In this document: piece by piece, positions 12,195 to 23,492 of the stretch
Numbering within the stretch: the first letter of the stretch is position 1
Layout of the letters: each line of letters begins with the position of its first letter
Origin: Actinomycetota bacterium
Lineage (GTDB): Bacteria; Actinomycetota; Acidimicrobiia; Acidimicrobiales; MedAcidi-G1
NCBI GenBank assembly: GCA_014381745.1
Contig: JACNLA010000031.1
Location: 1 to 46,528, forward strand
Length of the DNA stretch: 46,528 nt
Direction of reading: 5' to 3'
Program-made: the position numbers and the translations under genes
The notes under the pieces: model-generated
Databases searched by the model: none
Seen by the model: the letters and a program-made list of their open reading frames with translations, nothing else
What the model was told of the DNA's origin: nothing

Positions 12195-13664
12195 GTGACA
12201 GGCGGACTCTTCGGGGACTACGACAGGGGCGGGTTCTTTGACGAGGCCATAGGCGAAGACGGCGCCGCAAGGGAAGGCCAGGAAAACCTCGTCTCCTGGT
12301 TCGATGCCCTGACCGCTGACGACCTGCGCTACCACTCGACGCTCCGCGACGACCTCCTCTTGAGCCGTGGCATCACCTTCACCGTCTACGGGGAGTCCCA
12401 GGGCATCGAGAGAACCTGGCCCATGGACCTCTTCCCACGGGTAATCGCGTCCGACGAGTGGGCGGTACTCGAACAGGGTCTCGCCCAGAGAGTGAACGCC
12501 CTAAACCGCTTCCTCGAGGACCTCTACGTGGGCGAACAGGCAATCCTCGAGGACGGCGTCGTCCCACGCTGGCTGGTCATGTCATCAGCAGGCTTCGAGC
12601 GCGAGGCGTTCAACGTGGCCGTACCCAACGGTGCGCGCTGCCTCGTCTCGGGAATCGACATCGTGCGTGGAGGCGACGGCCAGTTCATCGTCCTCGAGGA
12701 CAACCTGCGCAACCCGTCAGGTGTCAGCTATGTACTGGAGAACCGGGCGACCATGGCCCGGGTGCTGACCGGTGCATTCGATGAGATGGCGATCCGCTCG
12801 GTCGACCACTACGGCCGATCCCTGGTAGCAGCGCTCAAGCATGCGGCTCCACCAGCAGCCGGTGACGACCCGGTTGTCTGCGTGCTCACCCCAGGGATCT
12901 ACAACTCCGCCTACTTCGAACACGCCTTTCTGGCCCGCCAGATGGGGGTCGAGTTGGTCGAGGGCCGAGACCTGGTCGTTGACGACCACGTCGTGGCTAT
13001 GCGAACTACTGGAGGTTTACGCAAGGTCGATGTCATCTACAGGCGCATCGACGACCACTTCCTTGACCCGGCCGTGTTCGACACGGGTTCCACGCTCGGC
13101 GTTCCGGGTCTCATGGCAGCCGTACGGGCCGGCACGGTCACCGTGTCCAACGCCGTCGGCAACGGCGTCGCCGACGACAAGGCCGTGTACCCGTACGTTC
13201 CAGCCATGATCGAGTACTACCTGGGCGAAGAGGCGATCCTGCCCAACGCCACCACCTACGTGCTCTGGGATGAAGACCAACGGGCTGCAGCCCTTGACCG
13301 GGCCGACGAGTTGGTCTGGAAACCGGTCGCAGAATCAGGTGGCTACGGCATCGTCATCGGCCCCTCGGCCACAGACGAGGAGTTGGCCGGCATCCGGACA
13401 ACGGTTGAGGCCGACCCCCGTGGGTGGATAGCCCAGGAGGTAGTGCAGCTGAGCCGTGTCCCCAGCTGTGTCGACGGTGGCCTCGAAGGCCGCCACGTGG
13501 ATCTACGCCCCTTCATCCTGACCGGTGAGTCCATCGAGGTGCTGCCAGGTGGTCTCACCCGGGTCGCCATGCGAAAGGGCTCGCTGATCGTGAACTCCTC
13601 CCAGGGTGGCGGTTCCAAGGACACATGGGTTCTCGACGACGAGCCCACCGGGGCCACAGGCTGA
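12195..13664 (+). CDS. Circularly permuted ATP-grasp type 2 protein
   Basis: The 489-aa protein belongs to the circularly permuted ATP-grasp group (DUF404/DUF407). Landmarks are LSRGITFTVYGESQGIERTWPMDLFPRVI at the N-terminus, RVNALNRFLEDLYVGEQ, IVLEDNLRNPSGVSYVLENR, LTPGIYNSAYFEH and VWKPVAESGGYG, and near the end RPFILTG and VAMRKGSLIVNSSQGGGSKDTWV. ATP-grasp enzymes ligate a carboxylate to an amine, so a peptide- or amide-forming role is likely; the substrate is unknown. The GTG start has almost no leader. The stop is fused to the next start as TGATG, so the three cassette genes are translated together. Confidence 0.93.
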   Translation: MTGGLFGDYDRGGFFDEAIGEDGAAREGQENLVSWFDALTADDLRYHSTLRDDLLLSRGITFTVYGESQGIERTWPMDLFPRVIASDEWAVLEQGLAQRVNALNRFLEDLYVGEQAILEDGVVPRWLVMSSAGFEREAFNVAVPNGARCLVSGIDIVRGGDGQFIVLEDNLRNPSGVSYVLENRATMARVLTGAFDEMAIRSVDHYGRSLVAALKHAAPPAAGDDPVVCVLTPGIYNSAYFEHAFLARQMGVELVEGRDLVVDDHVVAMRTTGGLRKVDVIYRRIDDHFLDPAVFDTGSTLGVPGLMAAVRAGTVTVSNAVGNGVADDKAVYPYVPAMIEYYLGEEAILPNATTYVLWDEDQRAAALDRADELVWKPVAESGGYGIVIGPSATDEELAGIRTTVEADPRGWIAQEVVQLSRVPSCVDGGLEGRHVDLRPFILTGESIEVLPGGLTRVAMRKGSLIVNSSQGGGSKDTWVLDDEPTGATG

Positions 13665-14629
13665 TGCTGGCCAGACACGCCGAGAGCCTCTTCTGGGCAG
13701 GCCGCTACCTGGAAAGGGCCGAGGACACCGCCAGAATTTTGGACGCCACCCAGCACGCCACCATCATCAGGCCCGACGCCGCAACACAGTGGGAAGACCT
13801 TCTCACCGTCCTGCGCATCAACAAGGAGTTCGAGGCCACCGGCAACGAGGTCGACTGGCGCGGGGTCGGCAACTTCCTGGTCGCAGATCCCGAGAACCCC
13901 GGATCCATCGCCTCGGCAGTCCAGACCGCCCGAGAAAACCTTCGAAGCGTCAGGGAACAGTTGCCGAGCGAGGTGTGGGAAACAGCCAACCGATTCCACC
14001 TGGAGTTGTCGTCACATGACCTGGCCGCCGACCTCGACGGTGAGCCCTACACCCTGTTCGACCTGATCAAGACCCACTGCCAGACGGTTTCAGGTGCCAT
14101 CGAGCAGAACATGCCCAGAAGCGACGGCTACCGGTTCCTCACCATCGGCGTCCTCATCGAGCGGGCGTTGATGACCTCGAGGCTGCTCAGCATCCGATGG
14201 GGACACATGGCATCGGGAGCCTTCGAGGATGCCATGCTCACCCTCTCCTCGGTTTCAGCGGTCGAGGCGTTCCGACGTCGCCATCAGTCCACGACGGATC
14301 CGGTGGCCATCTCGTCATTCCTGCTCCGTGACGCCCTGTTCCCAAGGAGCACCCTCTACTGCCTGTCCAGAGCCGAACTGCTGCTCGACAACCTGGTGGA
14401 CCGCGTTCCCGGTCGCGGTCGGACCGAGACCGTTCTCGGGCGTGTCAGATCCAGCCTCGAGTTCGCCGAACTCGACGAGGGCGCCGTCGATATCCCGGCC
14501 TTCTGCGCCGAGCTGGACGACGGAATCCGTCAGGTCGCCGATGTCATGGCCCGGCAGTATTTTCGCAACGTGGACCAGGTCAACATCAGGCCACAGGTCA
14601 CCGTGGTGTCGGTGGGAGGGAGACGGTGA
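13664..14629 (+). CDS. Alpha-E domain protein
   Basis: The product starts MLARHAESLFWAGRYLERAEDTARILD, which is the alpha-E domain signature, and is all-helical over about 321 aa. Later landmarks are RSVREQLPSEVWETANR, HDLYxLxxxIK-like FDLIKTHCQTVSGAIEQ and GRxIERALMTSRLL-like IGVLIERALMTSRLL. The frame is open further upstream, but the ATG at 13664 gives the conserved start and a TGATG junction with the ATP-grasp gene. Alpha-E proteins are regular partners of circularly permuted ATP-grasp and transglutaminase-like proteins; their biochemical role is unproven. The stop overlaps the next start by 4 nt. Confidence 0.92.
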   Translation: MLARHAESLFWAGRYLERAEDTARILDATQHATIIRPDAATQWEDLLTVLRINKEFEATGNEVDWRGVGNFLVADPENPGSIASAVQTARENLRSVREQLPSEVWETANRFHLELSSHDLAADLDGEPYTLFDLIKTHCQTVSGAIEQNMPRSDGYRFLTIGVLIERALMTSRLLSIRWGHMASGAFEDAMLTLSSVSAVEAFRRRHQSTTDPVAISSFLLRDALFPRSTLYCLSRAELLLDNLVDRVPGRGRTETVLGRVRSSLEFAELDEGAVDIPAFCAELDDGIRQVADVMARQYFRNVDQVNIRPQVTVVSVGGRR

Positions 14630-15567
14630 GGCTCGACATCTCCAACCGAACCCTCTACCGCTTCGACGACGTGGTCCGCGAGTCGCAAAACGAGGTCCGT
14701 ACCTGTCCCACCAGCGACAGCCGCCAACACCTCATCGCCTACCGGTTAAGCCTTGCCCCGTCCTGCCGGGCGCTGGCCTTCTACGACTACTGGGGGACCC
14801 GCGTCGATGCCTTCGGGATCCGCGAACCGCACATCTCCATGGAGATCGTCGCCGAAGCCGCCGTGGAGACCAGCGAAGCTGAGCCCCGGCCTGCACCGAG
14901 CCCATGGGATGGACTCGACGAGCCGGGCTTTCGGGAACTCCACCTCGAGTACCTGGAGAGGACACCCCACGCCGACTGGGGAGATCGTGTGGCCGAAGCC
15001 GGCATGGAGGCACGGGTGGGAGACGATCTGGTTGCCACGGTTGTCGGCGTCCACGACCTGGTCCGTGAACGCATGAAGTACGAGACCGGCTCGACCCACA
15101 TAGGCATCAACGTCGACAAGGTGCTGTCAGACGGACACGGGGTATGCCAGGACTTCGCGCACCTCTCGGTCTCCATCTGCCGGAGCCTCGAGATACCGGC
15201 ACGCTACGTGTCCGGCTACCTCTTCACGGCAAGCGACGACACCGGCGACGACGTGGACGGAGACGTTGTTGACGTAGAGACGCACGCTTGGTTCGAGGCC
15301 GCCATACCCGGGCAGGGCTGGATGGCGATGGACCCCACCAACGGCCATGCCGTCGGCCCGCGACACGTCAAGATCGGCCACGGCCGCGACTACGACGACG
15401 TACCACCACTACGGGGATCGGTGTCAGGCGAAGCCGGAACCGAGGTCGAGACCAGCGTCGAGATCCGACGGATGGATCCCTCACATCAGGCAACCGTGGT
15501 CCAGCCACCGCTGACCCACGCAGACATGGAACACCAGATGTTCCAGTCCCAGCAACAGCAGCAGTAG
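14626..15567 (+). CDS. Transglutaminase-like cysteine protease-fold protein
   Basis: The 313-aa protein has the bacterial transglutaminase-like N-terminal beta domain (MRLDISNRTLYRFDDVV..., about 1-100) and a transglutaminase core. The catalytic triad is visible: Cys in GHGVCQDFAH, His in VETHAWFEA and Asp in MAMDPTNG. In this cassette the protein is thought to act as a peptidase or transferase on the product of the ATP-grasp ligase. The GTG start overlaps the alpha-E stop. An unusual feature is the Gln-rich C-terminus (QSQQQQQ), which is not part of the domain. It ends 6 nt before a convergent SDR gene. Confidence 0.93.
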   Translation: MRLDISNRTLYRFDDVVRESQNEVRTCPTSDSRQHLIAYRLSLAPSCRALAFYDYWGTRVDAFGIREPHISMEIVAEAAVETSEAEPRPAPSPWDGLDEPGFRELHLEYLERTPHADWGDRVAEAGMEARVGDDLVATVVGVHDLVRERMKYETGSTHIGINVDKVLSDGHGVCQDFAHLSVSICRSLEIPARYVSGYLFTASDDTGDDVDGDVVDVETHAWFEAAIPGQGWMAMDPTNGHAVGPRHVKIGHGRDYDDVPPLRGSVSGEAGTEVETSVEIRRMDPSHQATVVQPPLTHADMEHQMFQSQQQQQ

Positions 15568-15573
15568 GGGCTG

Positions 15574-16329
15574 TCAGCGGGCGGTAAACCCACCGTCAAC
15601 CGGCACGATCGCGCCGGTCATGTAGCTGGCCTCGTCGGACGCAAGGAAGAGCACAACCCGTGCAATCTCCTCAGGTTGTGCCAGACGCTTCACCGGGATG
15701 GTCTCCTCGGCCAGCAGCACCAGGGCGGCCGGGGTCGGTGGCGTGTCGCGCCCCGAAGCAAGCATCGGTGTGTCCACCTCGCCGGGGGCAACGGCGTTGA
15801 CTCGGATTCCATCGTCGGCATGGTCGAGGGCCATCGCACGTGTCAGCTGGTGAACAGCGCCCTTGGACGCGCAGTAAGCGAGCACCCCACTTGCTCCTAC
15901 CCCACCCCAGATGGACCCGAAGTTGACTATCGAACCAGACCCCCTCTCGGCCATCGACCGGACCGCAGCGCGTGACATATAGAAGACGCCGTCCACGTTC
16001 ACCGACATGACCCGTCGCCAGTCGTCATCATCTGTGCCGGAAGCAGCCGCCCTGTGGATCACCCCCGCTGCGTTTACCAACACGTCAACGCAACCGTGTG
16101 TAGCCACCACGGCATCGACCGTGCCATCGCAGAACTCCGGATCGCTGACATCACCAACCAGGGCCGCCACCCCCGTCTCATGAGCCACTCGGCGTGCACC
16201 TGCCTCGTCCCGGTCGACCAGCGTGACCACCGCACCCGCCTCAGTGAACGCCCGTACGGTTGCGGCACCCATGCCGGATGCGCCCCCTGTTACCACGGCG
16301 ACCTTCCCGGCAAGCAAGCCGTCGTTCAC
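15574..16329 (-). CDS. SDR-family oxidoreductase (classical, with substrate loop)
   Basis: The 251-aa protein is a classical short-chain dehydrogenase. It has the nucleotide motif TGGASGMG, NAAG in VLVNAAGVIHR, the catalytic Ser in NFGSIWG, the YCASK form of YxxxK, and the closing SYMTGAIVPVDGGFTAR. The loop VDRDEAG after the second beta strand, with Asp at its end, suggests NAD rather than NADP. The substrate cannot be read from sequence. The GTG start overlaps the stop of the upstream SDR by 4 nt, so the two form an operon, divergent from the DMGDH-like/MttB operon, with which they may share a pathway. Confidence 0.9.
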   Translation of the reverse strand: MNDGLLAGKVAVVTGGASGMGAATVRAFTEAGAVVTLVDRDEAGARRVAHETGVAALVGDVSDPEFCDGTVDAVVATHGCVDVLVNAAGVIHRAAASGTDDDDWRRVMSVNVDGVFYMSRAAVRSMAERGSGSIVNFGSIWGGVGASGVLAYCASKGAVHQLTRAMALDHADDGIRVNAVAPGEVDTPMLASGRDTPPTPAALVLLAEETIPVKRLAQPEEIARVVLFLASDEASYMTGAIVPVDGGFTAR

Positions 16330-17078
16330 TGCTCGGGTCCCTCCACGGGATGGAAGTTGACGCTCCCGTAGGTCTGCTCGGTCGGCTGCAACTCCACCCT
16401 GGCCACGTTCACATACCAGGGTGCATCCAGGGCATACGAGATCGAGGCGGCAACGTCCTCGCTGGTTATCTCGGTGATACCGGTCTCTTTGAACCTGTGC
16501 CGAAGATCCGGGTCGTCGATGGCTGCGTCATAGAACTCTGTGGCAACGCGCCCCGGACAGATCTCGGTCACCCGAACACCGGTTCCGGCCAACTCGAGGC
16601 GGAGGTTCAGTGACAACAGGTGGATTGCGCCCTTGGATGCCCCGTACACACCCGACGTGAGGGGGTAGAGCCCAGCCACGGAACCCACGTTGACGATGTG
16701 CCCGCGTCCCCTCTCGATCATCGACGGCAGCACGGTGCGAACGGCGTGGAGGGCGGCGGTCACGTTGGTCCCAATCGTCTGGTCAACATCGGCGGGGTCG
16801 GCGTCGGTGAGCGACTGGATGGCCCTACCAACCCCGGCGTTGTTGACCAGAATGTCGACCCCCAGCGAACCGAACAGTTCCTCCATGGCGACCGTGTCCC
16901 GAACGTCAAGCACGTGGGTGGTGCAACCGGTAGCCGCGGCTAGGTCAACCAGCCTGTCTTGCCTCCGGGCGACAGCGTGCACGGTCAGACCCCGGGCACA
17001 CAGGTCGGAAACCACGGCGGCCCCGATGCCCGCCGATGCACCCGTCACGAGGGCCGATTCATAGTCACTGATCGTCAT
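16326..17078 (-). CDS. SDR-family oxidoreductase
   Basis: The product is about 250 aa from the ATG at 17078 (MTISDYESALVTGASAGIG). A longer frame reaches 17183 but adds a non-homologous N-terminus and would overlap the divergent DMGDH-like gene. Motifs are TGASAGIG, NNAGVG, NVGSVAG and YGASK, all those needed for catalysis. VARRQDR after strand 2 suggests NADP binding. The protein resembles the YdfG/serine-3-dehydrogenase-like SDRs (ICPGRVATEFYDAAI). The substrate is unknown. It is the first gene of a two-gene operon facing away from the methylamine genes. Confidence 0.88.
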   Translation of the reverse strand: MTISDYESALVTGASAGIGAAVVSDLCARGLTVHAVARRQDRLVDLAAATGCTTHVLDVRDTVAMEELFGSLGVDILVNNAGVGRAIQSLTDADPADVDQTIGTNVTAALHAVRTVLPSMIERGRGHIVNVGSVAGLYPLTSGVYGASKGAIHLLSLNLRLELAGTGVRVTEICPGRVATEFYDAAIDDPDLRHRFKETGITEITSEDVAASISYALDAPWYVNVARVELQPTEQTYGSVNFHPVEGPEQ

Positions 17079-17167
17079 GGACGACAACCGTAGACTGCCG
17101 GGAACAGCAACTTCCAAGGTCTGCCAAGGTGTACCTTCTCGCCCAGCGAAACACGTGGAGGTGACCC

Positions 17168-19609
17168 ATGCGCAGCGAGGCACAGTGTGTAATCGTCGGC
17201 GGCGGCGCCATGGGCGTCGGGCTCCTCTACCACCTGGCCCACGAGGGCTGGACCGACACCCTCCTCGTCGAGAAGGGCGAGCTCACCTCAGGCTCGACCT
17301 GGCACGCAGCCGGCCTCGTACCCAACTTCATCGGCAGCCTCAACATGGCCAAGGTCCACGCCTACGGCATAGACCTCTACAAGGCCCTCGAGGCCGAGAC
17401 CGGCATGTCCACCGGTTGGCACGGCTGCGGAGCGATCCGCCTCGCCGTCACCGAAGAACAGGCCGACTGGTACCGCTACGTCCAGGGCATCCTCGGCTCC
17501 CTGGGAGTCGAGTCGCACCTCATCAGCCCCGACGACGTCCGCCAGCGGGTGCCGCTAATGGAATCCACCGACGACATCATCCTCGGCTTTTGGACACCCA
17601 ACGATGGCTGGTCCGACCCCACCGGCTCCACCAACGCCATGGCCGTAGGTGCCCGCCAACTCGGTGCCGAGATCGCCCGCCACACGCTCGTCACCGCCGT
17701 GGACCAACTCCCCGACGGACGCTGGAAGGTAACCACAGACAAAGGTGAGGTCACCTGCGACCACGTAGTGAACGCCGCCGGCCACTACGCCCCCCAACTC
17801 GGCGCCATGTCCGGCATCGACGTACCAATCGTCTCGATGATCCACCAGTACCTGATCACAGAGTCACTCCCCGAAATTGCCGCCCAGGAAGTCGAGATGC
17901 CCGTAATCCGGGACCCCCGATCCTCCTGCTACTACCGCCGCGAGATCGACAGCCTCCTCATCGGCCCCTACGAGACCCGCAACTCCATCACCTACGGGGT
18001 GGACGGCATCGACTGGAACCTCCACTTCCACCTCACACCGCCAGACCTCGATCAACTCGCACCGTGGCTTGAAATATCCGCTGAACGATTCCCGCTGTTT
18101 GCAGAGGCAGGTATCAAACAGGTTGTCAGCGGCCCCATTACACACACACCAGACGGCGGCTACCTGATGGGGCCGGCACCGGGGGTGCGCAACTACTGGA
18201 TGTGCGCCGGAGCCTCAATCGGCATCACCCAGGGCCCCGGAGCCGGAAAGTTTCTGGCCCAGTGGATGGTCCACGGCCAGACCGAGATCAACGTCCGCGA
18301 GATGGATCCCCGCCGGTTCGGCCCCTGGTCCGACCTCGACTACACCATCGCCAAGTCAGTCGACGAATACCACGAGATGTACCAGGTGCGAATGCCCGGC
18401 GAGTACCGGTCTGCCGGGCGCCCGCTCAGGCGCACACCGATCGCGGAGCGACTCGATGCCCTCGGGGCACAATGGCAGGACGTCTGGGGATGGGAGCGGG
18501 CTCGCTACTACGGCCCGCCCGAGGAGTACTCGTGGCGCCGCTCAAACGCCTTTGACGCCGTAGGCGATGAATGCCGCGGCGTACGGGAACGGGTCGGTAT
18601 CTCCGACCTCAGCGCCTTTGCCAAGTTCGGCGTGGTAGGCCGCGATGCGGCTGCCCTGCTCGGCCGACTCTCAGCCAACCGGCTCCCCGCCAGGCCAGGT
18701 GGCATCCGGCTCGTACACATGCTCACCGACATGGGTGGCATCGAGTGCGAGATGACGGTCACCCGCATGAACGACGAGCGGTTCTACCTGAACTCCGCCA
18801 TTGCCGGAACCACCCACGACATCGACTGGCTCACACAGCACGTGCTGCCCAACGAGGACGTCACGGTCGAAAACTGGACCGACCAGATGGGCATTCTCGC
18901 CGTAACCGGCCCGCTGGCCCGCGACGTGCTCGCCTCGTGCAGTGACGCTGACCTCTCCAACGAGGCATTCCCGTGGCTGACCTGTGGCCAGGTCGAAATC
19001 GGGGGTGTGGGCTGCATTGCGCTCCGGGTCAGCTACGTGGGCGAGCTGGGCTGGGAGCTCCACCATCCCATCGAACAGATGCCCCAGTTGTACGAAGCTC
19101 TGATCGACGCCGGAGAACCCCACGGCATGGTCCACTTTGGCGCAATCGCCATGAACTCCATGCGCATGGAGAAGGCCTACAAGGCCTGGGGCGGAGAGCT
19201 CACCACCGAGATCACCCCCATCGAGGCCGGTCTCGACCGGTTCGTCGACCTGGACACACCCGGCCGCGACTTCATGGGCCGAGGCGCAACCATCGCCCGC
19301 CGTGACACCGCCGGAACCAACCGCTCAGGGCTCGACATGCTCCTCGCGTACTGCGAAGTCGATACCACCGACTCGGACTGCCGAGGCAACGAGCCCGTGT
19401 ACCAGGCCGGAACAGGCAACATCATCGGCATCACCACCGGGGGAGCCTGGGGCCACACCGTCAAGCAATCCCTGGCCTTTGCCTACGTGGAACCTGCATT
19501 CGCAGCACCGGGAACCACCTTTGAGATCGGCCTGTTCGGTGAGCGACACACAGCCACGGTGCTGGACCAGCCGGCCCACGACCCGACCAACGAACGGCTC
19601 AAAGCCTGA
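17168..19609 (+). CDS. Dimethylglycine/sarcosine dehydrogenase-like FAD-GcvT fusion
   Basis: The 813-aa protein has three parts. There is an FAD-dependent DAO domain (about 1-380) with CVIVGGGAMGVGLLYHLA and SGSTWHAAGLV, whose His is the usual covalent-FAD site. An FAO_M linker follows (about 380-440). The C-terminal GcvT-type tetrahydrofolate domain (about 440-810) contains VGISDLSAFAKF, GELGWELHHP, MRMEKAYKAWGGELT and the late ITTGGAWGH. Such proteins oxidatively demethylate dimethylglycine or sarcosine and pass the one-carbon unit to tetrahydrofolate. A GGAGGTG ribosome site precedes the ATG. An MttB-family gene follows 26 nt later. Dimethylglycine is the best-guess substrate; sarcosine or another N-methyl amine remains possible. 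Confidence 0.9.
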   Translation: MRSEAQCVIVGGGAMGVGLLYHLAHEGWTDTLLVEKGELTSGSTWHAAGLVPNFIGSLNMAKVHAYGIDLYKALEAETGMSTGWHGCGAIRLAVTEEQADWYRYVQGILGSLGVESHLISPDDVRQRVPLMESTDDIILGFWTPNDGWSDPTGSTNAMAVGARQLGAEIARHTLVTAVDQLPDGRWKVTTDKGEVTCDHVVNAAGHYAPQLGAMSGIDVPIVSMIHQYLITESLPEIAAQEVEMPVIRDPRSSCYYRREIDSLLIGPYETRNSITYGVDGIDWNLHFHLTPPDLDQLAPWLEISAERFPLFAEAGIKQVVSGPITHTPDGGYLMGPAPGVRNYWMCAGASIGITQGPGAGKFLAQWMVHGQTEINVREMDPRRFGPWSDLDYTIAKSVDEYHEMYQVRMPGEYRSAGRPLRRTPIAERLDALGAQWQDVWGWERARYYGPPEEYSWRRSNAFDAVGDECRGVRERVGISDLSAFAKFGVVGRDAAALLGRLSANRLPARPGGIRLVHMLTDMGGIECEMTVTRMNDERFYLNSAIAGTTHDIDWLTQHVLPNEDVTVENWTDQMGILAVTGPLARDVLASCSDADLSNEAFPWLTCGQVEIGGVGCIALRVSYVGELGWELHHPIEQMPQLYEALIDAGEPHGMVHFGAIAMNSMRMEKAYKAWGGELTTEITPIEAGLDRFVDLDTPGRDFMGRGATIARRDTAGTNRSGLDMLLAYCEVDTTDSDCRGNEPVYQAGTGNIIGITTGGAWGHTVKQSLAFAYVEPAFAAPGTTFEIGLFGERHTATVLDQPAHDPTNERLKA

Positions 19610-19635
19610 ACCACGATCAGACCTCCAGGGGGACA

Positions 19636-21216
19636 ATGAGCGACACCGCAACCACCGAAGGTTCACCACAGCGCCGGCCAGGTGGACGCGCCGCACGTAT
19701 AGCGGCCCGGGCAACCCGACCAACCGGCGACGCACGTCCAGTACGACCCGGAATGCCCGGCGGGAGATACGCACCGCTCAGCGAATCCGACTGCGAACAG
19801 GTCTACGAGGCTGCCCTCGTCCTCCTCGAGGAAATCGGAATGGGCAGCCCTATTCAGGAGTTCATCAACGTCATCACCGCTGCAGGCGGCCACGTCAACG
19901 GTGACCGACTCCACTTCCCCCGCTCGCTCGTCGAAGACGCCATCTCCACAGCCGCCAGGTCGTTCACGTGGTACGGATTCGACGACAACCGATCAATCGA
20001 CGTGGGTGGCGACAGGGTCCACTTCGGTACAGCCGGCGCAGCCGTATCGGTCTGGGACCACGAGACCCGCCGACACCGACCATCCAACCTGCTCGATGTC
20101 TACGACGTGGCCCGCCTCGTCGACACGCTTGAACACATCCACTTTCACGTTCGCACTCTCGTTCCCCGTGACATGGTCGACGCCCGCGACCTTGACTTGA
20201 ACACCGCCTACGCCGTGGCCATGGGAACAACCATGCCGATCGGCACATCGTTCTTCCAACCGGAACACGTGCTCGAGACCGTGGAGATGTTCGACCAGAT
20301 GCTCGGAGGCCGCCCCGGATCGTTTGCCGAACGACCGTTCTGCGTAGCGAACAACACGTTCGTCGTGCCGCCACTCCGCTATGCCGAAGACGCTGCCCAC
20401 TCGATGGTCGCTCAGGTTCGATCCGGCATGCCCATCAACCTCCTGTCTGCAGGACAGGCGGGCGCCACCTCACCAGCTGCCCTCGCAGGGTCACTGGCCC
20501 AGGCCCTGGCCGAGTGCCTCTCAGCGCTCACGTTCGTCAACCTCATGAAGCCCGGCCATCCGTGTGTGATGGGACTCTGGCCGTTCGTGTCGGACCTCCG
20601 AACCGGAGCCATGACCGGCGGGTCGGGTGCCGAAGCTGTGCTGACTGCGGCAGCGGCACAGATGGCCAACTGGTTGGACCTCCCATCGGGAGTACCAGCA
20701 GGCATGGCCGACTCAAAGATGCCCGACAACCAGGCCGGGCATGAGAAAGGCATGACCGTTGCCCTGGCAGGTAACGCCGGCGCAAACCTGGTCTACGAAT
20801 CGGCCGGGATGCTAGCCAGCCTTCTTGCCTGCTCGTTCGAGGGCCTGGTGATCGACAACGACATGTTGGGGGCAGTCAACCGGACCGTCCGCGGCATCGA
20901 GATAACCCCGGAGACGCTCTCCACGGAGGTAATCCGCGAAGTGGTCCACGGAGCAGGCCACTTCCTGGGCCAGGAACAGACCCTCTCGATAATGCAGACC
21001 GAGTACGTGTACCCCGAAATTGGTGACCGCCTCAGCCCCGAGGACTGGTTCGACGCAGGCGCCACCTCAGCTGACGAACGGGCCCGGGAACACGTAAAGA
21101 AGGTGCTCTCCACCCACTTCCCGTCCCACATCGGCCCCGATATCGACACGTCCATCCGGGAACGATTCGACATACTCCTTCCCGTAGAGGAGTTGACCAC
21201 CAACAGTCGCTGGTAG
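19636..21216 (+). CDS. MttB-superfamily (trimethylamine/betaine) methyltransferase, non-pyrrolysine
   Basis: The 526-aa protein belongs to the trimethylamine methyltransferase family: YAPLSESDCEQVYEAALVLLEEIGM near the N-terminus, VHFGTAGAAVSVWD, a GxPxxxxxAGqaGATSPAALAGSLAQ-type core, and FDIL at the end. There is no in-frame TAG, so it is the non-pyrrolysine type, whose studied members (MtgB) demethylate glycine betaine and similar quaternary amines onto a corrinoid protein. The first 45 residues are a disordered Arg/Pro-rich lead. No corrinoid-binding protein is encoded in this window. Together with the DMGDH-like neighbour, a glycine betaine to dimethylglycine to sarcosine path is plausible but inferred. 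Confidence 0.9.
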   Translation: MSDTATTEGSPQRRPGGRAARIAARATRPTGDARPVRPGMPGGRYAPLSESDCEQVYEAALVLLEEIGMGSPIQEFINVITAAGGHVNGDRLHFPRSLVEDAISTAARSFTWYGFDDNRSIDVGGDRVHFGTAGAAVSVWDHETRRHRPSNLLDVYDVARLVDTLEHIHFHVRTLVPRDMVDARDLDLNTAYAVAMGTTMPIGTSFFQPEHVLETVEMFDQMLGGRPGSFAERPFCVANNTFVVPPLRYAEDAAHSMVAQVRSGMPINLLSAGQAGATSPAALAGSLAQALAECLSALTFVNLMKPGHPCVMGLWPFVSDLRTGAMTGGSGAEAVLTAAAAQMANWLDLPSGVPAGMADSKMPDNQAGHEKGMTVALAGNAGANLVYESAGMLASLLACSFEGLVIDNDMLGAVNRTVRGIEITPETLSTEVIREVVHGAGHFLGQEQTLSIMQTEYVYPEIGDRLSPEDWFDAGATSADERAREHVKKVLSTHFPSHIGPDIDTSIRERFDILLPVEELTTNSRW

Positions 21217-21920: not shown

Positions 21921-23492
21921 GTGGCCGACCTGTACGAGACCCCGAAACCGAAGCCGTTCATCAACGGCTCTGGGCCACGCAACGTCGTGGTCATCCTCTT
22001 GGACAGCCTCAACCGGCACATGCTCGGCTGCTACGGGGGTACCGAGTTCGAAACACCAAACCTTGACCGTCTGGCGGCCCGCTCACTCCGCTTCGACCGC
22101 CACTACTCGGCCTCGCTGCCGTGCATGCCGGCACGCCACGACATCCTCTGTGGTGCGTGGGACTTTCTGTGGAGGCCATGGGGCTCCATCGAGGTGTGGG
22201 AATCCAACATCGCCCGTGAGATGAAGATGAGCGGCGTGGCCACCGGCATCATCACCGACCACCCCCACCTGTTCGAGACCGGCGGTGAGAACTACCACAC
22301 AGACTTCGGGATGTGGGACTACGTGCGAGGCCACGAAGACGACCCGTGGCGACTACGAGAGGACCCCTCCTGGGTTGGCACACCAGCGCTGCCGGCAACC
22401 GAGGGCTGGGTCCACCGCGGCTACGACACCTCCCGTACATGGTTCCGCGACGAGGCCGACTTTCCCGGACCGCGGACCATGCAAGCAACAGCCGACTGGC
22501 TGGACCGCAACGCCGGGCACCACGACAGGTTCTTCCTGTTCGTGGACGAGTTCGACCCCCACGAGCCCTTCGACACCCCTGAACGCTGGGCGTACCGCTA
22601 CCACGACCAGCATGACGAGCCGCTCGAGATATGGCCCCCCTACGGGCGCGACGTGATCAAAAAGGGGGTCATCACACCCCGTCAGGCAGAACAGCTGAGA
22701 GCCAACTACGGATCCAAGTTGTCCATGATCGACCACTGGCTCGGGAAGGTCCTCGACTCAATGGACGACAACAACCTGTGGGATGACACGGCCCTGTTCC
22801 TGGTCACGGACCATGGCCACTATCTGGGTGAACGCGACGACATGTTCGGCAAACCGATGTCTCCCATATACGACCTGCTCGGAGCCATCCCGATGCTCGT
22901 GGCGTGGCCAGGGGTTGAGGCAGGCACAAGAAGTGCCCTCTCAACCAGCGTTGACGTACACGCGACCCTCACCGACCTGTTCAACCTTGACATCGAGCAC
23001 CGCACCCACGGCGTGTCCCTACGCGAGGTGATCGAGGGAAGAGCCGATGCTGCCCGAGACCACCTCCTTCAGGGCTACTTCGGACGCGAGGTCAACGTCA
23101 TCGACTCCGCCGGAAAGTACATACGGGGCGTCCAGGGAGAACGGACCGACGTGAGCGTCTGGTCCAACCGCTGGTCGACGATGCCCGTGCACGCCTACCC
23201 ACGCCTCGGCCTGGCCAGGCCCGACGACAGGGCCGTGCTGGACCGGATGCCTGGGAGCGACGTGCCGGTCATCCGCCAACCGTTCACTGCCGACGACCTC
23301 GCCGGAGGCGCCGTGTTCATGGCCGGACGATCGGTGGGTGCCAGGTCCGAGTTGTATGACGTCTCTGACACCGACGAATCAGACGACCTTGTCGGATCAG
23401 CCCGCGAGGACCACTACGTGGACCTGCTCCACCACGCCCTCGCAGAGGTCGAGGCCCCCGAAGAACAGTTCGCGAGGCTTGGCCTCAGCTGA
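21921..23492 (+). CDS. Sulfatase (formylglycine type)
   Basis: The 523-aa alkaline-phosphatase-superfamily sulfatase begins its core with NVVVILLDSLNRHMLGCYGG (metal Asp) and TPNLDRLAARSLRFDRHY. CMPAR is the C-x-P-x-R sequence whose Cys is turned into formylglycine. LVTDHGHYLGERD provides the second metal-site Asp/His, and KxxR-like residues follow. No signal peptide is visible, so it is probably cytoplasmic and acts on an imported sulfate ester. Activity would need a formylglycine-generating enzyme encoded elsewhere. The GTG start is only 5 nt after mgtC. A choline-sulfate-type substrate would fit the neighbouring methylated-amine genes, but this is a guess. Confidence 0.92.
   Translation: MADLYETPKPKPFINGSGPRNVVVILLDSLNRHMLGCYGGTEFETPNLDRLAARSLRFDRHYSASLPCMPARHDILCGAWDFLWRPWGSIEVWESNIAREMKMSGVATGIITDHPHLFETGGENYHTDFGMWDYVRGHEDDPWRLREDPSWVGTPALPATEGWVHRGYDTSRTWFRDEADFPGPRTMQATADWLDRNAGHHDRFFLFVDEFDPHEPFDTPERWAYRYHDQHDEPLEIWPPYGRDVIKKGVITPRQAEQLRANYGSKLSMIDHWLGKVLDSMDDNNLWDDTALFLVTDHGHYLGERDDMFGKPMSPIYDLLGAIPMLVAWPGVEAGTRSALSTSVDVHATLTDLFNLDIEHRTHGVSLREVIEGRADAARDHLLQGYFGREVNVIDSAGKYIRGVQGERTDVSVWSNRWSTMPVHAYPRLGLARPDDRAVLDRMPGSDVPVIRQPFTADDLAGGAVFMAGRSVGARSELYDVSDTDESDDLVGSAREDHYVDLLHHALAEVEAPEEQFARLGLS

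Follow-up and report, generated by a model that had tools for sequence, protein, structure and literature searches.

How does an MttB-superfamily methyltransferase pass on its methyl group when no corrinoid protein is encoded beside it? The question is raised by contig JACNLA010000031.1 of the Acidimicrobiales assembly GCA_014381745.1 (46,528 nucleotides; this whole stretch is called the window), in which the gene of such an enzyme directly follows that of a dimethylglycine dehydrogenase (DMGDH)-like protein, an FAD-dependent oxidoreductase fused to a GcvT-type folate domain (Table 1). The window is one contig (C40; C, G and L are our handles for contigs, genomes and loci) of a 2.19-Mb genome in 44 contigs with 95.9% completeness, whose closest kin, judged by the MttB, are marine Acidimicrobiia. 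A preliminary description made from the window alone had recognised this pair, with coordinates and domains as we find them, and had suggested that it demethylates a quaternary amine by a different, non-corrinoid acceptor route. The demethylation is probable from the enzyme families, and the acceptor route is not upheld. The pair very probably carries out N-demethylation in two steps and draws on a shared corrinoid system encoded elsewhere in the genome. We favour this reading because of a corrinoid cassette on contig C37, linkage of such a cassette to an orthologous pair in a relative, co-occurrence of this MttB type with the reactivase domain RACo and the corrinoid-protein domain PF02607, invariant core residues, a predicted fold like that of the MttB in 7xcn, and precedents in Ruegeria pomeroyi and Eubacterium limosum.

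When the B12-binding profiles PF02310 and PF02607 were run against the whole genome, matches were obtained on C37, C31 and C4 and none on the window contig. The absence of a corrinoid partner, as first described, thus holds for the window and its contig, and does not hold for the genome: a corrinoid protein encoded elsewhere, the first half of the observation named beforehand as speaking against a non-corrinoid route (the second half being its co-regulation), is present on C37. This MtgC-like protein of 235 aa, with B12-binding and B12-binding_2 domains and encoded at L016:5138-5845, is the one PF02607 corrinoid protein of the genome; the matches on C31 (a 175-aa frame) and C4 (a 724-aa frame) are both without PF02607. 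The gene order of the C37 locus is IclR (on the opposite strand), MtgC-like corrinoid protein, DUF1638, Pterin_bind, RACo reactivase, canonical MttB, FTHFS and MTHFR, with ETF alpha, ETF beta and a DMGDH-like gene upstream of the cassette. The corrinoid protein, the reactivase and the pterin methyltransferase of corrinoid:tetrahydrofolate type, together with the linkage and the RACo co-occurrence given below, argue against the non-corrinoid acceptor. Four MttB proteins are encoded in the genome, scoring 731 (C37), 630 (C4), 616 (C20) and 372 bits (window) against PF06253. A further DMGDH-like gene lies on C16, and proteins of C22 carry domains of the sarcosine oxidase alpha and beta subunits. 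As a separate observation, C4 bears a second MttB–DMGDH pair (L017:3881-8657) whose MttB belongs to a different branch, with IclR and M24 peptidase-family genes close by.

Direct linkage was found in a relative. At locus L052 of genome G081, one strand carries in succession DMGDH, DMGDH, MttB, MtgC, DUF1638, pterin methyltransferase, RACo and a C37-type MttB, so that an orthologous DMGDH–MttB pair stands directly upstream of mtgC. The second DMGDH and the first MttB of this run are 62% and 66% identical to those of the window, and the remaining products match their C37 counterparts at 83% (MtgC), 58% (DUF1638), 81% (pterin methyltransferase), 58% (RACo) and 66% (MttB). In 4 of the 50 loci surveyed (L023, L029, L030 and L060), an IclR gene 36-39% identical to that of C37 is found close to the DMGDH, and none was seen beside the window pair. 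The 50 loci, all found through the MttB alone, are the window, L021-L063 and L070-L075, the plasmid loci among them being six opened from the best 25 of 192 matched plasmid records.

Co-occurrence points the same way. A search of genome contigs with the window MttB gave 31 loci, some of them on short or oddly binned contigs, with identities mostly of 79-92% in Acidimicrobiales, about 47-53% in SAR116 and other Alphaproteobacteria, and 52-53% in Gammaproteobacteria. With L026 and L047 (both from one metagenome-assembled genome) left out, the genomes of the other 29 were surveyed; a RACo domain was present in 26, and a PF02607 match within a frame of 234-372 aa likewise in 26. In a sample of 79 genomes of the order with completeness ≥85%, where the window-type MttB was called at E ≤ 1e-60, this MttB occurred in 10 genomes and RACo in 14; RACo accompanied 9 of the 10 genomes with the enzyme and 5 of the 69 without it (Fisher p 9e-8, with shared ancestry ignored). 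A search for MtgC covering 22 chosen genomes found a short MtgC-like protein in seven of nine order genomes with the window-type MttB, the window's own genome being excluded.

The MttB protein itself is a full-length member of its superfamily, matching PF06253 with 372 bits (cut-off 25) over profile positions 2-490 of 500. By sequence, its nearest solved structures are those of MtgB (9yce and 2qne, E about 4e-56), with 28% identity to 2qne. An AlphaFold model (mean pLDDT 73, pTM 0.78) superposes on MttB 7xcl with Z 40.1 over 408 residues at 3.4 A, on the MttB of the MttB–MttC complex 7xcn with Z 40.0 and on MtgB 9yce with Z 38.7, and the next family, MtmB, follows far lower at Z 22.4. The family core residues D364, Q366, E370, H442 and T449 are invariant across the 45 branch rows and the four canonical rows. 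A pyrrolysine enzyme was considered and ruled out: the frame is without an amber codon, Met357 occupies the pyrrolysine position, and the model of the pyrrolysine-type trimethylamine methyltransferase (TIGR02369) gives 334 bits where 525 are needed.

A maximum-likelihood tree was built from 50 rows, namely three references and 47 MttBs out of 49 collected, L026 and L029 having been dropped (short or broken MttBs were skipped at collection). In it, the window MttB falls in a branch of 43 rows with support 100/99 and a stem of 1.53 changes per site. This branch is set apart from MtgB (2qne), from S. meliloti 4yyc and from the C37, C4 and C20 paralogues, and the C37 paralogue clusters with 4yyc; the row of the pyrrolysine-containing MttB (Pyl-MttB) is very long and its placement unsure. 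Members of the branch span Acidimicrobiia, SAR116, roseobacters, rhizobia and Gammaproteobacteria.

The partner protein shows DAO, FAO_M, GCV_T and GCV_T_C domains, all over cut-off and in the order of DMGDH and DMGO. Its best solved structures are the dimethylglycine dehydrogenases 4pab (E 2.2e-186) and 5l46, with DMGO 1pj5 at 5e-96. By hand count on the alignment, H46 (in GSTWHAAGL), H226 and Y255 correspond to the motif His, H225 and Y259 of 1pj5, which we take to be the FAD-linking His and the active-site His and Tyr. E528 aligns with Asp552 of DMGO, presumably the acidic residue of the folate site, and the solved DMGDHs also have Glu there.

A rival reading is that the two genes are independent and adjacent by accident. 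The survey of MttB–DMGDH adjacency that had been suggested for the pair shows a DMGDH-like open reading frame (ORF) adjoining the window-type MttB, within 1.3 kb, in 42 of 50 loci, 41 of which have both genes on one strand; gaps were measured from the first possible start of each ORF, and small negative gaps reflect over-long ORFs. Paired loci span three groups, Actinomycetota, Alphaproteobacteria and Gammaproteobacteria, and in two plasmid loci (L070 and L074) an aminotransferase stands between the two genes. In six of the eight loci without a DMGDH, the contig stops on a side where one could lie (L031, L038, L047, L049, L050 and L059). L056 and L058 lack such a neighbour despite sequence on both sides, which is what accidental adjacency would allow; the retention of the pairing across three groups makes this explanation highly improbable. 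In the window, both reading frames are open and free of internal stops, the purine-rich AGGGGGAC lies in the gap immediately 5' of the MttB ATG, and the genes probably form one transcription unit. Identity of the nearest DMGDH partner to that of the window is 62-89% in most Acidimicrobiia and order relatives and falls to about 30-50% in most other groups. Hence it appears that DMGDH-type proteins in general accompany the branch, as successive demethylation steps would give; many loci hold two DMGDH-like genes. At L023:6069-9497, the window-type MttB occurs in tandem copy behind the DMGDH, with 74% and 89% identity to that of the window.

Several observations weigh against reliance on the remote cassette. 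The cassette lies within the examined flank in only one of the 50 loci (L052), so that dispersal, as in the window, is the usual state. Three genomes of the 29 (G009, G013 and G023, the same three for both domains) lack RACo and PF02607; in G067 (86% complete) RACo is present, and the sole corrinoid match is of MetH size; and G053 (96% complete) carries two window-type MttBs and gave no RACo or MtgC match. In the model of the window MttB, loops 358-365, 390-417 and 436-477 have pLDDT <50, which places active-site geometry beyond what the model can judge. Finally, the branch departs from the canonical paralogues where it aligns with residues of the corrinoid rim and the active site of Pyl-MttB: it has Y387 in 36 of 45 rows where they have Leu (4 of 4), M392 in all 45 rows where they have Trp, and L396 in 36 rows and Ile in the other nine where they have Gly.

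Some of these points could be read as signs of a corrinoid-independent reaction, in which the MttB gives its methyl directly to folate on the GcvT domain of the DMGDH partner; the near-constant adjacency of a folate-domain protein (42 of 50 loci), the single linked cassette and G053 would all suit it. RACo and the corrinoid protein co-occur with the branch, however, L052 links them physically, and the core residues of the family are conserved. Furthermore, the folate site of DMGDH accepts a one-carbon unit of formaldehyde level, not a methyl cation. G053 is the sole fairly complete genome that could favour the corrinoid-free reaction, and its standing as a natural B12-free case is weakened, since it also carries four canonical MttBs and since MtgC and RACo lie close together in genomes where both were seen on one contig, so that a single missing stretch could remove both. 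A missing stretch of assembly is thus likelier there than a B12-free route, and we regard direct transfer to folate as extremely improbable. Lost corrinoid-rim residues were also considered as a sign of B12 independence and dropped: Gly372 of Pyl-MttB aligns with Leu396 of the window MttB, and MtgB, a reported corrinoid enzyme, has Phe there. The residue differences at 387, 392 and 396 suggest that the active site differs, and perhaps with it the substrate. Y387 aligns with Tyr364 of Pyl-MttB, a residue that matters for the rate of that enzyme according to the available part of its description (PMC9842639).

On reliance on the remote corrinoid system, the MttB would in a first step demethylate a quaternary ammonium compound once, with Co(I) of the C37 MtgC-like protein as the methyl acceptor and with RACo and DUF1638 keeping the cobalt reduced; the pterin methyltransferase would then pass the methyl to tetrahydrofolate (THF), yielding methyl-THF. 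In a second step the DMGDH-like protein would oxidise the resulting tertiary amine, with electrons going to ETF and the one-carbon unit to methylene-THF, and the sarcosine-oxidase-like subunits elsewhere in the genome could complete the demethylation. Most likely, the pair adds a new branch to a known pathway, and its chemistry is not new.

Which amine is the substrate is a refinement of this scheme, not an alternative to its corrinoid step. The same corrinoid chemistry may act on a compound other than glycine betaine: the canonical C37 MttB would take betaine, and the window-type MttB with its DMGDH partner or partners would take another methylated amine stepwise, for example the betaine of a non-glycine amine. 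We consider the chances of this evenly balanced. It is favoured by the separate position of the branch relative to MtgB and to the C37, C4 and C20 paralogues, by the L052 run holding both window-type and C37-type MttBs, and by the two DMGDH-like genes of many loci, which would fit the oxidative removal of two methyls. A run on the megaplasmid of R. pomeroyi DSS-3 (L070:9929-19249) comprises an MttB (SPO_RS21400), an aminotransferase of class III, a pair of DMGDH-like proteins and a thiamine diphosphate (ThDP) enzyme whose best NCBIfam models are sulfoacetaldehyde acetyltransferase (Xsc; 401 bits). It has the look of a complete catabolic route for an amine bearing N-methyl groups, in an order that would suit removal of all N-methyls to leave a primary amine, then transamination, then cleavage of the C2 aldehyde; the run recurs in Ruegeria sp. 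THAF33 (L074). Against it, the 401 bits of the L070 ThDP enzyme fall short of the family cut-off of 620, the best models of the aminotransferase, glutamate-1-semialdehyde aminomutases, are also below cut-off, the additional genes of the L070 type occur in plasmid copies and not in the window, and a Mesorhizobium copy lies near glycine betaine ABC transporter genes. For the roseobacter copies, N,N,N-trimethyltaurine was no more than an idea for the substrate and was set aside: the ThDP enzyme does not reach the Xsc cut-off, and the best models of the aminotransferase are not taurine aminotransferases.

The features of the window around the pair are collected in Table 1.

Table 1. Features in and around the DMGDH–MttB pair of the window
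Feature	Position	Strand or orientation	Details
CP_ATPgrasp_2, Alpha-E and transglutaminase genes	12195-15567		consecutive genes; domain matches
Two short-chain dehydrogenases	15574-17183	divergent from the DMGDH–MttB pair	kept near the pair in L021, L022, L023, L046, L060
DMGDH-like gene (FAD-dependent oxidoreductase fused to GcvT-type folate domain)	17168-19609	+	813 aa; DAO + FAO_M + GCV_T + GCV_T_C
Gap between DMGDH-like and MttB genes	19610-19635	+	26 bp, from gene coordinates
MttB-superfamily methyltransferase gene, non-pyrrolysine, separate MttB branch	19636-21216	+	526 aa; PF06253
Sulfatase-family gene	21921-23492	3' of MttB	CMPAR motif

The CMPAR motif of the sulfatase-family gene is, we assume, typical of formylglycine sulfatases. 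This gene is retained in L021-L025 and L047. The SAR116-type loci L039, L043, L044, L045 and L050 have a different, PehA/choline-sulfatase-like gene after the MttB, a call for which models were run on L039 and L043 only and scored below cut-off. A sulfatase near the MttB may free the amine substrate from an ester.

With the corrinoid protein located on C37, the pair no longer stands as a possible exception to the corrinoid dependence of MttB enzymes. The data suggest that marine Acidimicrobiia have an MtgBCD-type route. CobS was sought in the genome and was not found, and from this one gene we infer that its B12 demand may be met by uptake of corrinoids. The sequences further suggest the MttB branch, with its near-constant DMGDH partner, as a concrete candidate N-osmolyte demethylase. 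A literature search among open-licence PMC papers found no paper on this branch and no characterised member. Among the papers listed, 'MttB' with 'dimethylglycine dehydrogenase' turned up only a cold-seep study, taurobetaine or trimethyltaurine nothing evident on bacterial degradation, and homarine operons nothing relevant.

Among known systems, the closest comparison is MtgBCD of the aerobe R. pomeroyi, where deletions of mtgC and mtgD show that both genes are required for growth on betaine and for methionine synthesis, as given in the available portion of Mausz et al. 2025 (PMC12478193). As in that system, so far as this portion describes it, the window genome has a PF06253 enzyme, a free-standing corrinoid protein, a pterin methyltransferase, a RamA-type reactivase and DUF1638, and its genes are scattered, with several PF06253 paralogues and later demethylation genes often nearby. 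The same excerpt describes the MtgBCD genes as scattered in R. pomeroyi and often clustered elsewhere, and reports up to seven PF06253 genes per genome, which are suggested to serve diverse methylated compounds (PMC12478193). Unlike that system, the window MttB is actinobacterial, lies on a branch apart from MtgB, and depends on MtgC only putatively. E. limosum offers the precedent for sharing: in the part of PMC8604678 at hand, its MtpB, MtcB and MtyB use one separately encoded corrinoid protein, MtqC, together with MtqA and RamQ, and the window genome resembles it in having dispersed MttB paralogues and one remote corrinoid protein. E. limosum is an anaerobic gut acetogen, however, and that part describes no DMGDH partner (PMC8604678). 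The DMGDH-like protein aligns over nearly its full length with mitochondrial DMGDH (4pab, 5l46) and bacterial DMGO (1pj5), DMGDH being the closer, and differs from both in that its gene adjoins an MttB. With Pyl-MttB (7xcl/7xcn) the window MttB shares the predicted fold (Z 40) and the Tyr364 equivalent kept in most branch rows (36 of 45), whereas Met357 at the pyrrolysine position and the TIGR02369 score (334 vs 525) set the two enzymes apart.

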